A stretch of DNA of 64,000 nucleotides from the NCBI GenBank assembly GCA_016125285.1, contig WGMA01000027.1:62001-126000 (forward strand), read 5' to 3'. Below the pieces are notes generated by a model. The model worked only from the letters and a program-made list of their open reading frames with translations. It did not search any database and had not been told where the DNA came from. Below are positions 50,353-57,382 of this stretch, in pieces. This DNA is from Phycisphaera sp. (GTDB lineage Bacteria; Planctomycetota; Phycisphaerae; Phycisphaerales; Zrk34). How positions within the stretch are numbered: the stretch's first letter is position 1; every line of letters starts with the position of its first letter. The position numbers and the translations under genes are program-made.

Positions 50353-50739
50353 GAATGGTTACTCCGGAAACGCGTCGTGTTATACCACCACCAGTGAGAC
50401 CGTGACAGTGCTGAACGATCGTGCGCAAGAGCGCGCACGTCAAACACCGTCAGCCCGATTTTGCCACGAAAAAGTCAACGCACGCCGCGACCTCTACTTA
50501 CACCGTCGCCCCGCGCGCGTCGCGACGCCCCCGTGCGCACCTGCGCGTCGCTGCGACCACTTATAGAGGGTTATTACATGATCCAAACCCCAGACAACGT
50601 ACGCGCTCACCGCGCCGTGCGCCCCGCACCTCCCATGGCAAGCCCACGGCTCCGAGCGCAGCGAGACGACGTGGGATCCCCTTGGAATCCGGCTCGCCCC
50701 GCGCGAACACGGTTCATACCCGCCAGCGCGCATTATGTA

Positions 50740-50754
50740 CCCCCCCCCCCCCCC
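50740..50754. repeat. Poly-C tract of 15 bases
   Basis: Fifteen consecutive C residues on the plus strand, between GTA and GAATAT. Tracts of this length are prone to slippage. It lies just outside the palindromic junction at 50783-51142. Confidence 0.95.
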
Positions 50755-50782
50755 GAATATCGGCGCGTTGTCGCAGCACTGC

Positions 50783-51142
50783 CCGCATGGGGCCTCGCCG
50801 GCCCCCTGCGCGACCCCCGCTCCACCCCGTGGCGCCCGTCGCGACACGACATGCGCACGTGTTCGATCGCATATCTTTCCCCGCACGGCCCCATCTGCCG
50901 GCGAGGGCCGCGCGGGGAAAGACATGCTGGTGGGGCAGAGCCGATACGACACGGGCCGCGTGCGACCCGTCGTTCGACACACCCCCCAACCACACAACCA
51001 GCCTGCTGCCTTCGGCAAAGCCCTCGCCAGAGCCGGGGCTTTGCCGAAGGCAGCGGGCGATCGAACACGCGGGGCCGTCCCCCCGTGCGGCGCGCGCCAC
51101 GACGCTCAGCGGGGGTCGCGCAGGGGGCGGAGCCCCATGCGG
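50783..51142. other. Multi-branch palindromic element (possible structured RNA or cruciform DNA)
   Basis: Nested exact inverted blocks form a long imperfect closing stem: 50783-50793 with 51132-51142 (11 bp), 50801-50821 with 51108-51128 (21 bp) and 50858-50870 with 51057-51069 (13 bp). Inside it are hairpin A (50875-50891 with 50905-50921, 17 bp, one mismatch), hairpin C (50926-50931 with 50997-51002, plus an inner stem near 50946-50973) and hairpin B (51005-51023 with 51036-51054, 19 bp perfect). Hairpin A begins four bases after the closing stem and hairpin B ends two bases before it. No convincing gene lies here; open frames reflect GC bias. The rest of the gap 50353-51191 shows only a poly-C tract and TATAGA at 50562. 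Confidence 0.7.
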
Positions 51143-51191
51143 TGCGGATACAACACCAGCGCGATACCCATTACGATGTTGCAGAACCCAC

Positions 51192-52397
51192 ATGACGCCT
51201 GAACCGCCGATCTATCTCGACCACAACGCCACCACGCCCGTCGATGCCCGCGTGCTCGACGCCATGCTGCCGTACTTTCGTGACGTCGCGGCCAACGCGT
51301 CGAGCACGCACGCACCGGGGCGCGCCGCGGCCGAGGCCGTCGACGCCGCGCGGCGACAGGTCGCTGAGCTGATCCACGCCGACCCGCGCGAGGTCGTGTT
51401 CACCAGCGGGGCGACCGAGGCCAACAACCTGGCGATCAAGGGCGTCGTGGGCTGGTACGGCAACCGCGACGACGCGCCCAACTACCGCGGGCGTCACGTC
51501 GTCACCGCCTCGACGGAGCACACCGCCGTGCTCGACGTGTGCGGTCGGCTCGTCGAGCAGGGCTGCGAAGTGACCTACGTCGATCCCGCGCCGACCGGCG
51601 TCATCGAGCCGGCGACCGTCGCCGACGCCGTGCGCGACGACACCGTGCTGGTGTCGGTGATGTGGGTCAACAACGAGACCGGCGTGATCAACGACATCGC
51701 CGCGATCGCCGCCGCCGTGCGCGACCGGCTCGGTCGACACGTGCTCGTGCACACCGACGCGACCCAGGCGGTGGGGCGCGTGCCCGTCGATGTCGCCGCG
51801 GCGCACGTCGATCTGCTCAGCTGCAGCGCCCACAAACTCTACGGCCCGAAGGGCGTCGGCGCGCTCTACGTCCGCCGACGCGACCCGCGCGTGAGACTGA
51901 CGCCGCTCATCGACGGCGGCGGGCACGAGCGCGGCGTGCGCAGCGGGACGCTCAACGTGCCGGGCGTCGTCGGGTTCGGCGCGGCGTGCGCCCTCTGCGC
52001 CCAGACCATGCGCCACGACATGGCGCGGATCGCCGACCTGCGCGACCGCCTCGAGGCGGCGCTGATCGCCCGGCTCGGTGACGACCGCGTGCGTGTGATC
52101 GCCGCCGAGGCCCCGCGCGTGCCCAACACCGCCAACGTCGCCTTCGCGGGGGTCGACGCCGACCGCCTGCTGCGGGCCACGCCGGGGATCGCCGCGAGCA
52201 CCGGCGCCGCGTGCAGCGCCGCGAACTGGCAGGGCAGCCACGTCCTGCGGCGGATGGGCCTCGACGACGCGGTCGCCCGCAGCGCCGTCCGCTTGAGCCT
52301 GGGTCGCGACACCACCCCCCATCAGATCACCCGGTCCGTGGAGCTCATGACCCGCACGCTCGCCACCGCCGACGTATCCACCCCCGCGTGTGGATGA
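51192..52397 (+). CDS. Cysteine desulfurase (NifS/IscS family)
   Basis: The 401-residue PLP enzyme releases sulfur from cysteine for Fe-S clusters or tRNA thiolation. Motifs: IYLDHNATTPVDARVLDAML, FTSGATEANNLAIKG, STEHTAVL, VSVMWVNNETGVI, HTDATQAVGRVPVDV, the PLP-lysine site SCSAHKLYGPKG, and the C-terminal catalytic Cys loop STGAACSAANWQGSHVL. The loop resembles group I IscS/NifS in position. The frame is open upstream, but family homology begins at the ATG 51192; the ribosome site is weak. Upstream lies the palindromic region at 50783-51142. No iscR or iscU is adjacent. Confidence 0.93.
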   Translation: MTPEPPIYLDHNATTPVDARVLDAMLPYFRDVAANASSTHAPGRAAAEAVDAARRQVAELIHADPREVVFTSGATEANNLAIKGVVGWYGNRDDAPNYRGRHVVTASTEHTAVLDVCGRLVEQGCEVTYVDPAPTGVIEPATVADAVRDDTVLVSVMWVNNETGVINDIAAIAAAVRDRLGRHVLVHTDATQAVGRVPVDVAAAHVDLLSCSAHKLYGPKGVGALYVRRRDPRVRLTPLIDGGGHERGVRSGTLNVPGVVGFGAACALCAQTMRHDMARIADLRDRLEAALIARLGDDRVRVIAAEAPRVPNTANVAFAGVDADRLLRATPGIAASTGAACSAANWQGSHVLRRMGLDDAVARSAVRLSLGRDTTPHQITRSVELMTRTLATADVSTPACG

Positions 52398-53711: not shown

Positions 53712-56700
53712 TCAGATCAGTCGCACGACGAAGTCGTCGGGGAACGAGATGCCGGTCAGGTCGGCGGGGCTGCGGAAGGCGACAGCGCCGTCGGGCGTGG
53801 CGAAGCGCACGCCGCGGAAGTCGGAGGTCGCCAGCCCGAAGGGCACGCCGCTGTTGGTCGGCTCGATGAGGCCGAGGCTGACGACGCCGAGCGTGTTGGC
53901 CGCGACGTCGGAGCCGACGAACGCGGGGTCGGTGCTGCCGCGCACGCCGCGGATGATGACGTTGCCGATCGACGCCAGGGCGTCGAAGTCGCCGCTGTCT
54001 TCGGGCAGGCCCATGACGCTGTCGTTGACGCCGGCGAACAGCTGGCTGTCGATCATGCGGCCGATGACGGCGCCGCCGATGTGGCCCGCGGCCCTGACGG
54101 AACTGTTGTTCATCTCGCCGGCCACGCCGAACCGACCCAGTGCCGTGATCCGCGCGTTGAGTGGGTCGACGTCCTGCGTCAGCGTCACGTCGGCGTCGAT
54201 CATGTCGCCGCGGATGTTGAGCACGGCGATGCTGTTGGCGGTGGCCGAGCCGCCGAAGTCGCCGCGGACGTCGACGACGCGCAGGTCGCCGGTGGCGATC
54301 AGTTCCCACGCGTTAGCGATCGAGGTCGCCAGCAGCGCCGAGGCGCCGCCGGTGATGTCCCACACGCCGCCGAGGATTTCGCCTGCGACACGCAGGTTGA
54401 TGACGGCGAGGGTGGCGGCGCCGGTGTTGTTGAGGGTGATGTCGAGGTCGGCGTCTCCGGCGATGTCGCTGCGCCGGTCGCCGCGCGTCAGCCACTGCCG
54501 CAGCGTGTCGGCGGTGATCGAGCCGCCGGACCACTCGGTGACGATGATGCTGCCGGCGTCGCCGCCGACGGTCACGTCGAGGTCGGTGACGCTGCCGAGT
54601 TGCAGGACGCCGATGGCGCCGGCCTCGATCGTGCCGGCGCTCCAGTCGCCGGCGCGGACGGCGGTGACGGCGCCGGTGACGTCGAGGTTCACCATCGAGA
54701 GGTTGCCGAGCCGGGCGCTGCGGATCGAGTCGGCGGCGATGCCGCCGGTGGAGACGTTGCCGAGCAGCAGGCTGGTCAGGTCGCTGAGGAGTTCGATGCC
54801 GAGGTTGGTCACATCGCCGCCGCGCAGGACGCGGAGCGAGCCGCCGGTGATATCGAGATTGGTCGCGTCGCCGAGCAGGACGGTGCCGATATCGAAGCCG
54901 ACGTCGAGCGTCAGGTCGCTGACGTCGCCGAGCCGCAGGGCGGCGAGCCCGCCGCCGGTGACGTCGATCGTCAGGTTGGACGCCGCGCCGCCGAGGATCG
55001 AGCCGACCTCGCCGACGATGGTGAATGTGGCGTCGCTGATCATGCCGGCGAAGCGTGCGCCGCCGAGGGTGGCGCGGGGCTCGCCGTCGCCGCTGAGCAT
55101 GAGGCTGGCCTCGAAGTCGCCATCGACGCTGTTGCGTCGGTCGCCGGTGACCAGCAGCGTGCCGATCCACGGGGCGGTGATCAGGTCGAGGTCGGCGTCG
55201 GTGTCGACCCAGTCGATGACGCGGAGCGAGCGGAGGCCGCTGCCGGACATGAGCGAGAGGTTCGCCACGCGTCCGAGCAGGACGTCGACGGTGTCGGTGG
55301 CGGCACCGCCGATGGTCATGGTGTGGTTGTCGGCGATGTCGCCGAGCTGGATCGCGCGTGCGGATCCGGTGATCGTCACGTCGCCGAGGATATCGGTGGT
55401 GCGTCCGGAGAGGATGCTGATGTCGCCGTCGACGACGATGTCGATGACGGAGGTGCGCCCGTCGCCGCCGCGTGCGCTGACGAGCAGGGAGCTGCTGGCG
55501 GTGGTGCCGTCGAGGAGGATCTGGTAGGCGTCGCCGGAGCCGGTCGCGGGGATGAACACCTGGCCGGCGCCTGCGCCGCGGAGGCTGACGGTGACGGTGT
55601 CGCCGTTGTCGTCGACGTACTGGGCGACCTGTCCGTTGGCGATGTCGAAGACCATGGCCTCGTTGTCGACGATGTGGGCGGTGGCCTGTGCGTCGGTCAG
55701 CACCACGCCGCCGCTGGGGTTCGAGAGGTTGACGAAGAAGCTCTCGCCGGGGTCGGCGACGTCGTCGTCGTTGAGCGGGATGTGGATGTACTGGACGGTG
55801 TCGCCGGGGTCGAAGGTGAGCGTGCCGGTGATCGCGAAGTAGTCGTCGGTGGGCATCGCGGTGTCGGGCGCGGTGGAGAAGTCGACGGTGACCGGCTGGT
55901 CGAGCATCTGGCTGAGGTGCACCGCGAGCGTGAGGACGCCGTCGCCCTCACCGGCGGAGGCGTCGTCGATGGTGAACCCTGCGACGGAGACGTCGAATGC
56001 GACCTGGGCGTGGTTGCCCTGCAGATCGGTGGCGGTGACGGTGACGGTGATGGTGCCGGCGGTGTCGGCGGGGGAGGTGAGTCGGATCTGGCTGTTGGCG
56101 ATCGCGGCGGTGGCGACGGCGGGGTTGGACGACTGGACGGAGAACGACAGCTCGGGGACGAGGGCGATGTCGGTGAATCGGACGAAGTTGGCGGTGGTCA
56201 GCTGGCCGCCGTTGTAGTTGATCAGCGGCAGCGAGCTGAGGGCGGCGTTGATGGACGAGCCGTCGTAGAGCTGGACGGCGGCGATGGCGTCGACGACGTT
56301 CATGCCGTCGAACAGGACGTGGCCGAAGGTGGTGAACCCGCCGTTCTGGATGTCGAGGTTGTCGGAGTTGTTGGCGAGGTTGAAGAACCACTGGCTGGTG
56401 GCGGAGTCGGGGTTGCCGCCGACCTTGGCCATGGCGATGGTGCCGCGCGTGTTGGTGTCGTGGGTGATGAACCAGTCGAGCCCGGACTGCGAGGCGGAGG
56501 AGGGCGTGGGCGCGACGATGACGGTGTCGGAGGCGTCGTTGACGCCGATGATCTCGAAGAAGGGCGTTGGCGCGGCGGGGCTGCCGATGGGCAGGCCGTC
56601 GTTGCGGCCGGTCAGGCAGATATGATCGCCGAGCACGACGCCGCTGAGGTCGGTGCCGTTGGGCAGCTGAACGACGTTGGAGGCGATGGTGACCGACGCG

Positions 56701-57218
56701 TTGGCGCCGGAGACGAAGGCGAGGTTGGAGAACTCGTTGATGACAGCGGGGTTGGTGGTGACGGCGGTGATGCCGCTGCCGGTCCAGTTGAACCCGCCGC
56801 CCTGGATGATGAAGTTGTCGATGGAGCGGTGGATGAAGTTGTCGCCCTGGATCTCGTTGTTGAAAGCGCCGGTGTTGACGTAGGTGATGAAGTTGGCGAC
56901 GGTCGAGGGCGTGGCGGTGTTGGTCAGCTCGACGTAGAAGGTGCCGAGGACGGACTCGAACTTGGTGACCGAGCCGTTGATCGCCGGGTCGTTGAAGAGG
57001 CTGGCGAGGTTGGCGATGACCTGGTTGGTGACCGGGGCGGTGACCTGCTGGTCGTTGACGCTGCCGAGGACGGTGGCGGACATCAGCACGCGTGGCTCGA
57101 GGGCCTCGAAGAGCGGCTGCGTGTCGGGCCGGGCTGGCCGACGTCGGCGGTCGCGCCGCCGCGGGGGTGTACCGATCAACCGCCGCCACAACGATTGCAT
57201 GTTGCGTCTGCTCATCAT
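53712..57218 (-). CDS. LEPR-XLL exported giant with cyclophilin and Calx-beta domains
   Basis: The 1,168-residue product starts MMSRRNMQSLWRRLIG. A basic stretch is followed by LEPRVLMS at residues 40-47, the planctomycete LEPR-XLL signature. A cyclophilin-type peptidyl-prolyl isomerase domain follows (FESVLGTFYVELTNTATPST, FIHRSIDNFIIQGGGFNW, then TSQWFFNLANNSDNLDIQNG and FTTFGHVLFDGMNVVDAI), split by an insertion of about 100 residues. Next is a Calx-beta domain (FTIDDASAGEGDGVLTLAVH ... DDDVADPGESFFVNLSNPSG). The last 600 residues are a repetitive, probably beta-helical region (LRLGDVSDLTLDVGFDIGTV). AAGGAG sets the start. It is probably cell-surface located. Confidence 0.88.
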   Translation of the reverse strand: MMSRRNMQSLWRRLIGTPPRRRDRRRRPARPDTQPLFEALEPRVLMSATVLGSVNDQQVTAPVTNQVIANLASLFNDPAINGSVTKFESVLGTFYVELTNTATPSTVANFITYVNTGAFNNEIQGDNFIHRSIDNFIIQGGGFNWTGSGITAVTTNPAVINEFSNLAFVSGANASVTIASNVVQLPNGTDLSGVVLGDHICLTGRNDGLPIGSPAAPTPFFEIIGVNDASDTVIVAPTPSSASQSGLDWFITHDTNTRGTIAMAKVGGNPDSATSQWFFNLANNSDNLDIQNGGFTTFGHVLFDGMNVVDAIAAVQLYDGSSINAALSSLPLINYNGGQLTTANFVRFTDIALVPELSFSVQSSNPAVATAAIANSQIRLTSPADTAGTITVTVTATDLQGNHAQVAFDVSVAGFTIDDASAGEGDGVLTLAVHLSQMLDQPVTVDFSTAPDTAMPTDDYFAITGTLTFDPGDTVQYIHIPLNDDDVADPGESFFVNLSNPSGGVVLTDAQATAHIVDNEAMVFDIANGQVAQYVDDNGDTVTVSLRGAGAGQVFIPATGSGDAYQILLDGTTASSSLLVSARGGDGRTSVIDIVVDGDISILSGRTTDILGDVTITGSARAIQLGDIADNHTMTIGGAATDTVDVLLGRVANLSLMSGSGLRSLRVIDWVDTDADLDLITAPWIGTLLVTGDRRNSVDGDFEASLMLSGDGEPRATLGGARFAGMISDATFTIVGEVGSILGGAASNLTIDVTGGGLAALRLGDVSDLTLDVGFDIGTVLLGDATNLDITGGSLRVLRGGDVTNLGIELLSDLTSLLLGNVSTGGIAADSIRSARLGNLSMVNLDVTGAVTAVRAGDWSAGTIEAGAIGVLQLGSVTDLDVTVGGDAGSIIVTEWSGGSITADTLRQWLTRGDRRSDIAGDADLDITLNNTGAATLAVINLRVAGEILGGVWDITGGASALLATSIANAWELIATGDLRVVDVRGDFGGSATANSIAVLNIRGDMIDADVTLTQDVDPLNARITALGRFGVAGEMNNSSVRAAGHIGGAVIGRMIDSQLFAGVNDSVMGLPEDSGDFDALASIGNVIIRGVRGSTDPAFVGSDVAANTLGVVSLGLIEPTNSGVPFGLATSDFRGVRFATPDGAVAFRSPADLTGISFPDDFVVRLI

Positions 57219-57382
57219 CTTTGCTCCTTTTCCGCGCGGCCTGGCCGCGACCGTCCAACGCCTTGGCGCCCGTTCTCCGGCGGGCGTCACGTTTCTCGCA
57301 TCCGCCGCGGCGGCGTTTCACACGCGAGGCCGCGGCAACGATCTCCCCTGATTCAAACCCCGAAACGCCTGGAAGGTCGCAA

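Follow-up and report, generated by a model that had tools for sequence, protein, structure and literature searches.

A nested palindrome upstream of a cysteine desulfurase gene belongs to a small dispersed repeat family, most likely REPIN-like in its workings, of a Phycisphaera genome

The nested palindrome in the gap upstream of a cysteine desulfurase gene is one copy of a small, gene-less repeat family that is scattered between unrelated genes of the same Phycisphaera sp. genome. It is a broadly known kind of dispersed repeat, the unusual traits being its large size and its long covarying inner hairpins. More likely than not, the element is lineage-specific and non-autonomous, similar to REPIN/BIME or to TIR dimers, and is read as folded single-stranded DNA by what is presumably a RAYT-type (Y1/HUH) transposase.

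The window analyzed here is a 64-kb stretch of contig C13 (window coordinates equal C13 coordinates minus 62000) in an assembly of 90 contigs that is 97% complete. The initial annotation described three exact inverted blocks of 11, 21 and 13 bp in nested order, all of which were found where it had placed them (Table 1). The two main inner hairpins that it singled out are also present: the first has an exact 11-bp core (50874-50884/50912-50922) and extends beyond one mismatch, which is A.C, and the other is a perfect 19-bp hairpin (51005-51023/51036-51054). The claim that this order exceeds the effect of GC bias holds as well. The 360-nt segment has minimum free energies of -256.0 kcal/mol on the plus strand and -284.9 kcal/mol on the minus strand, with z-scores against dinucleotide shuffles of -14.1 and -15.1, respectively (0 of 100 shuffles equal), and of -15.0 for the minus strand with DNA parameters. 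After G+C correction, no other segment of this length in the window is as extreme. The open reading frame directly downstream, which starts at 51195, 52 nt from the element, indeed encodes a class-V aminotransferase/cysteine desulfurase (PF00266). The weak central hairpin was not recovered as a repeat elsewhere in the genome.

Table 1. Features of the foldback element in the window.
Feature	Coordinates	Strand	Remarks
Whole foldback element, inverted end-module pair and two long inner hairpins	50783..51142		Fold z -14/-15; family dispersed in own genome
Closing-stem block 1, 11 bp	50783..50793	+	Partner 51132-51142
Closing-stem block 2, 21 bp	50801..50821	+	Partner 51108-51128
Closing-stem block 3, CGTGTTCGATCGC, 13 bp	50858..50870	+	Partner 51057-51069
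Left end module, terminal palindrome CCGCATGGGGC..GGCCCCCTGCGCGACCCCCGCT and linker	50776..50844	-	Covariance model R2, 49.1 bits, E 2.1e-7
Right end module, ..GCGCGCGCCACGACG..AGCGGGGGTCGCGCAGGGGGCGGAGCCCCATGCGG	51085..51149	+	Covariance model R2, 68.4 bits, E 9.7e-12
Long inner hairpin 1, GATCGC-stem-...CTGCCGGCGAGGGC-stem-CATGCTGG	50865..50930	+	Model R1, 77.8 bits; covariation
Long inner hairpin 2, family of hairpin 1 in opposite orientation	50998..51062	-	Model R1, 85.2 bits; covariation
Weak central hairpin at the half-module junction, limits approximate	50939..50980		MFE structures

The gap itself, described as an 840-nt gene-free region, holds more than the palindrome: a second, unrelated dispersed repeat (approximately 50470-50610) and a tract of 15 C (50740-50754) had both been missed. 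The second repeat is present in 18 copies in the genome (loci L128-L144 and L008), with the conserved block TTTGCCACAAAAAAGTCA..ACTTACA..GTCGCGACGCCCCCGTGCGCACCTGCGCGTCG..CCCATTTATAGAGGG; in most copies, an ATG lies exactly 27 nt past this block and is followed by short similar peptides of the form M-x-Q-x-x-x-x-x-R-A. This repeat resembles a promoter or leader with a start codon more than a palindromic element. The C run lies within an open frame that extends from the ATG after the second repeat, through the palindromic element, to 51195, and is possibly a slippage tract or part of a decayed gene. Elsewhere in the window, the minus strand (53712-57290) encodes a large protein with cyclophilin and Calx-beta domains and an N-terminal motif of the LEPRVLMS type.

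Copies were located by a BLASTN search of the genome with the region as query, which returned partial copies at many places, and by focused searches for the long inner hairpin (model R1, in whose structure the outermost pairs are shifted by one, yet which is still specific) and for the end module (covariance model R2). Parts of the element recur at approximately 12 further loci, and the family occupies 13 loci. The end module, a palindromic unit of 36-60 nt, is found in 19 copies, of which 12 form six inverted pairs (one each in the window and on contigs C30, C67 and C85, and two on C62) and seven are single (one on C22, together with a long hairpin, and lone ends on C23, C53, C4, C3 and, twice, C37). 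The ends thus occur mostly as outward-facing inverted pairs, which span about 100-450 bp. The long inner hairpin is present in six copies, two of them in the window and one each on C22, C67, C30 and C62; the second end pair of C62 lacks it, and the pair of C85 surrounds an unrelated 27-bp hairpin. Because the long hairpin occurs twice, in opposite orientation, in the window copy and singly elsewhere, comparison of the copies makes the window copy look like two half-modules (end, linker and long hairpin) that were inversely joined. The paired copies fold with z-scores from -2.4 to -16.8, and no internal gene was found in any copy.

Wherever adjacent genes could be called, the copies are intergenic and their neighbours are unrelated, namely, as judged from the translations, accA/prephenate dehydrogenase, an unnamed gene/kdsA, glycosyltransferase/recQ and lpxK/hldE, with a desaturase downstream at C22; divergent and co-directional gaps are represented alike. 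The initial annotation offered three options for the palindrome, a structured RNA, a cis-acting leader, and a cruciform or mobile-element remnant. The recurrence at approximately 12 other loci between unrelated genes, together with the sharp outer ends described below, makes the mobile-element option the best fit, whereas an RNA role has a low probability and the leader finds no support. A leader of the cysteine desulfurase gene was rejected because the other copies lie beside accA, kdsA, recQ, lpxK, hldE and further genes, in both kinds of gap, and none are found in the relatives searched; it is unlikely that the element controls the gene that follows it. On C53 (6934-6991; L013:2130-2184), an lpxK-like frame appears to stop within the end module (..MASATT stop), so that the repeat would supply the last codons of this gene.

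The 19 ends, aligned on the terminal palindrome (..AGCGGGGTCGCGCAGGGGC-GGA-GCCCCTGCGG-NNN-GAR), have a sharp outer edge: past ..TGCGG, position +4 is G in 18 of the 19 and position +5 is A in 16, and conservation is lost from +7 outward (CGG-NNN-GA, with nothing kept beyond). The palindrome is flanked by CGGGGTCG on one side, with NNNGAR on the opposite one; the ends of the palindrome family are CCGCAGGGGCTCCGCCCCTGCGCGACCCC ends, and they also carry GGGGTCGC. Neither a GTAG nor a CGTC tetranucleotide is present 5' of the palindrome in the 19 ends. Across the six paired copies, whose flanks were compared by eye, there is no fixed-length target-site duplication and no long duplication either; identical 3 nt (TGC) on both sides are seen in the window copy alone.

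The six long inner hairpins were aligned with gaps in two columns only, and a structure of 23 pairs was read from these six sequences. Standard pairs fill 92.7% of the cells and 12 of the 23 pairs are changed on both sides; the covariation score is 0.50, compared with 0.15 for shuffled sequences and no more than 0.13 when the partners were slid, for a small set of six copies and a structure derived from the same sequences. Identity between copies is 0.90-0.96 in the loop and flanks and 0.49-0.55 in the stems, so that it is the pairing that is kept rather than the stem sequence. Among the mismatched cells on the GATCGC..CTGG strand, a small number, ten, drawn from the window (50865-50930 and 50998-51062) and the C22 and C67 copies, seven are A.C and none are G.T (two-sided binomial, approximately 0.016), which hints that one strand is the folded one. 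Folding of whole copies favours no strand consistently, and the window copy carries its two hairpins in opposite orientation, so that the "good" strand differs between them.

Model R1 detected no copy in 100 related genomes or in 397 genomes of the class, and a plasmid search found none. The 360-bp sequence yielded one weak 52-bp BLAST match among relatives (genome G012), rejected as a family copy since it has neither the family ends nor the hairpin; the end pattern in GTDB contigs matched two lone Streptomyces palindromes, which we take as chance. In view of the lack of copies in the relatives, the class and plasmids, the family is restricted to this genome as far as searched, this being the sole genome of its genus among those searched. 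No close relative with or without a copy at an alignable junction is available for an empty-site comparison.

REP units are tagged palindromes, often in inverted pairs (BIME, REPIN), and serve as substrates for RAYT transposases, which act on single strands (PMC8266576, PMC3116915). They occur as singlets and inverted doublets (PMC3116915), with inter-REP spacings in P. fluorescens SBW25 of typically 71 and 110 bp (PMC3116915, PMC8266576). Like REPIN and BIME, the family consists of short intergenic palindromes, single or in inverted pairs with a variable spacer, that are predicted to form a large hairpin or clover, in a genome that encodes RAYTs. REPs are defined by a palindromic unit of 20-50 nt that recurs in intergenic positions, to which the 19 end modules correspond, and largely by inverted doublets that can fold into a larger hairpin, to which the six pairs correspond. 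Unlike REPIN and BIME, the family is larger (100-450 bp), has few copies and an extra long conserved-loop hairpin inside, and lacks the GTAG or CGTC tag; no RAYT gene with these ends was found in the incomplete assembly. Other RAYT-like genes have long inverted ends on either side, and such ends are also present as dimers (PMC3733652); the TIR repeats of "TIRtrons" (TIRYT transposases), which are related to Y1 transposases, are single, dimeric or grouped, some with the GGGG-containing motif GGGGWSAS (PMC3733652). The family shares with them the long, partly self-complementary inverted ends, the single, dimeric or grouped layout and, in GGGGTCGC, a counterpart of the TIR motif, in which, however, G replaces A; also in contrast to TIRtrons, no transposase gene lies between the family ends.

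The RAYT model has 11 matches in the genome (L117-L127, on C50, C31, C15, C36, C85, C44, C80, C73, C70, C3 and C84), two of which exceed its curated cut-off; RAYTs lie, for example, at C50:144880, C31:293, C15:91714 and C80:74625. Several of these genes lie between palindromes or long inverted ends of their own. A multi-copy RAYT group (C36/C85/C80/C3) has inverted ends of 70-110 bp, which are also found alone elsewhere, and contigs break within this group. The palindromes at L117, L119, L120, L123 and L126 bear CGGGG?T directly 5' of the stem, like the ends of the palindrome family, whereas in a 50-kb control of ordinary DNA this motif is found at 1 of 37 hairpins; this comparison is small and post hoc, with an automatic scan over part of the RAYT loci and the remainder read by hand. 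Direct automatic alignment of the family ends with the RAYT palindromes detected no convincing homology past the short tag. A likeness of C85 to the flanks of an IS200 gene (L071) is due to another repeat inside C85 rather than to the ends. No transposase, RAYT or other, was found between, beside or flanked by the family ends in the assembly.

From the REP/RAYT literature, the RAYT matches, and the CGGGG?T shared by five RAYT loci and the family ends, we infer that the elements are, or once were, mobilized in trans by an enzyme of the RAYT type. When the DNA becomes single-stranded, on the lagging strand or during repair, the ends would fold, and a RAYT-type Y1/HUH transposase would recognize, cut and join the folded ends, which would make the element a miniature one like REPIN/BIME or a "TIR dimer". 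The dispersed copies, the layout of singlets and inverted doublets, the sharp edge, the lack of a long target duplication in the paired copies, the covarying hairpin, the unrelated neighbours and the presence of RAYTs support this reading; it is weakened by the absence of a RAYT with these ends and of a GTAG/CGTC tag, and by the low copy number (13 loci). Accordingly, the element most likely works like a REPIN but is not filed as one, since the layout is present and the GTAG tag and the linked RAYT are missing. We consider it unlikely, if conceivable, that the family represents a new class of miniature elements, recognized on one strand, whose unit is the half-module (terminal palindrome, linker, and a long hairpin in which loop and flanks are fixed and the stem is free); the inner hairpin would then add a separate function to that of the REP-type ends, as another binding site for protein or RNA.

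The outward-facing paired ends of 50-60 bp, the sharp boundary and the lack of an internal gene would also befit a MITE-like element descended from a conventional IS, whether DDE or other, with the end modules as terminal inverted repeats and the autonomous copy lost or hidden in a gap of the fragmented, 97% complete assembly. Bacterial MITEs (NEMIS/Correia, ERIC, Nezha; PMC3733652) are similarly non-coding and intergenic, with inverted ends and strong secondary structure. In contrast to classical MITEs, however, the family shows no regular target-site duplication, the TGC of the window copy being the sole exception, and no matching autonomous IS was found; single ends are common, and the ends themselves are strong hairpins, which classical terminal inverted repeats need not be. 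Hence, we regard a MITE origin as doubtful, although it deserves consideration.

The covariation of the inner hairpin is real, and its few mismatches are mostly such as would be G.U when read from one of the strands; both speak for the proposal of a large structured RNA, by which copies of a non-coding RNA, or of an mRNA-stabilizing or processing element, would have spread under selection on RNA folding. However, Rfam 15 gave no match at the gathering score and just generic miRNA hairpins at a permissive E-value, the element has no match to a Rho-independent terminator or sigma-70 promoter, the lack of a consistent strand noted above applies to whole elements and to the two window hairpins, and gene context and orientation vary among copies, making an RNA family quite improbable. 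Still less probable is symmetry without selection, whereby template switching or hairpin-templated repair (quasi-palindrome correction) acts in inert repeat remnants: arms that match within a copy, with stems strongly different between copies, are what it would produce, but it explains neither the dispersal and sharp outer ends nor a loop and flanks that are 90-96% identical despite drifting stems. Such correction could act alongside a REP-like mechanism.

Thus, a very ordered "RNA-like" fold in a gene gap can be a dispersed repeat rather than a leader. The family is an orphan REP- or TIR-like one, in a genome with approximately ten RAYT matches, in which the stem is free while the pairing, the loop and the flanks are kept; with this combination, one could test cleanly what such transposases recognize in their ends, and if a single RAYT can serve foreign ones.
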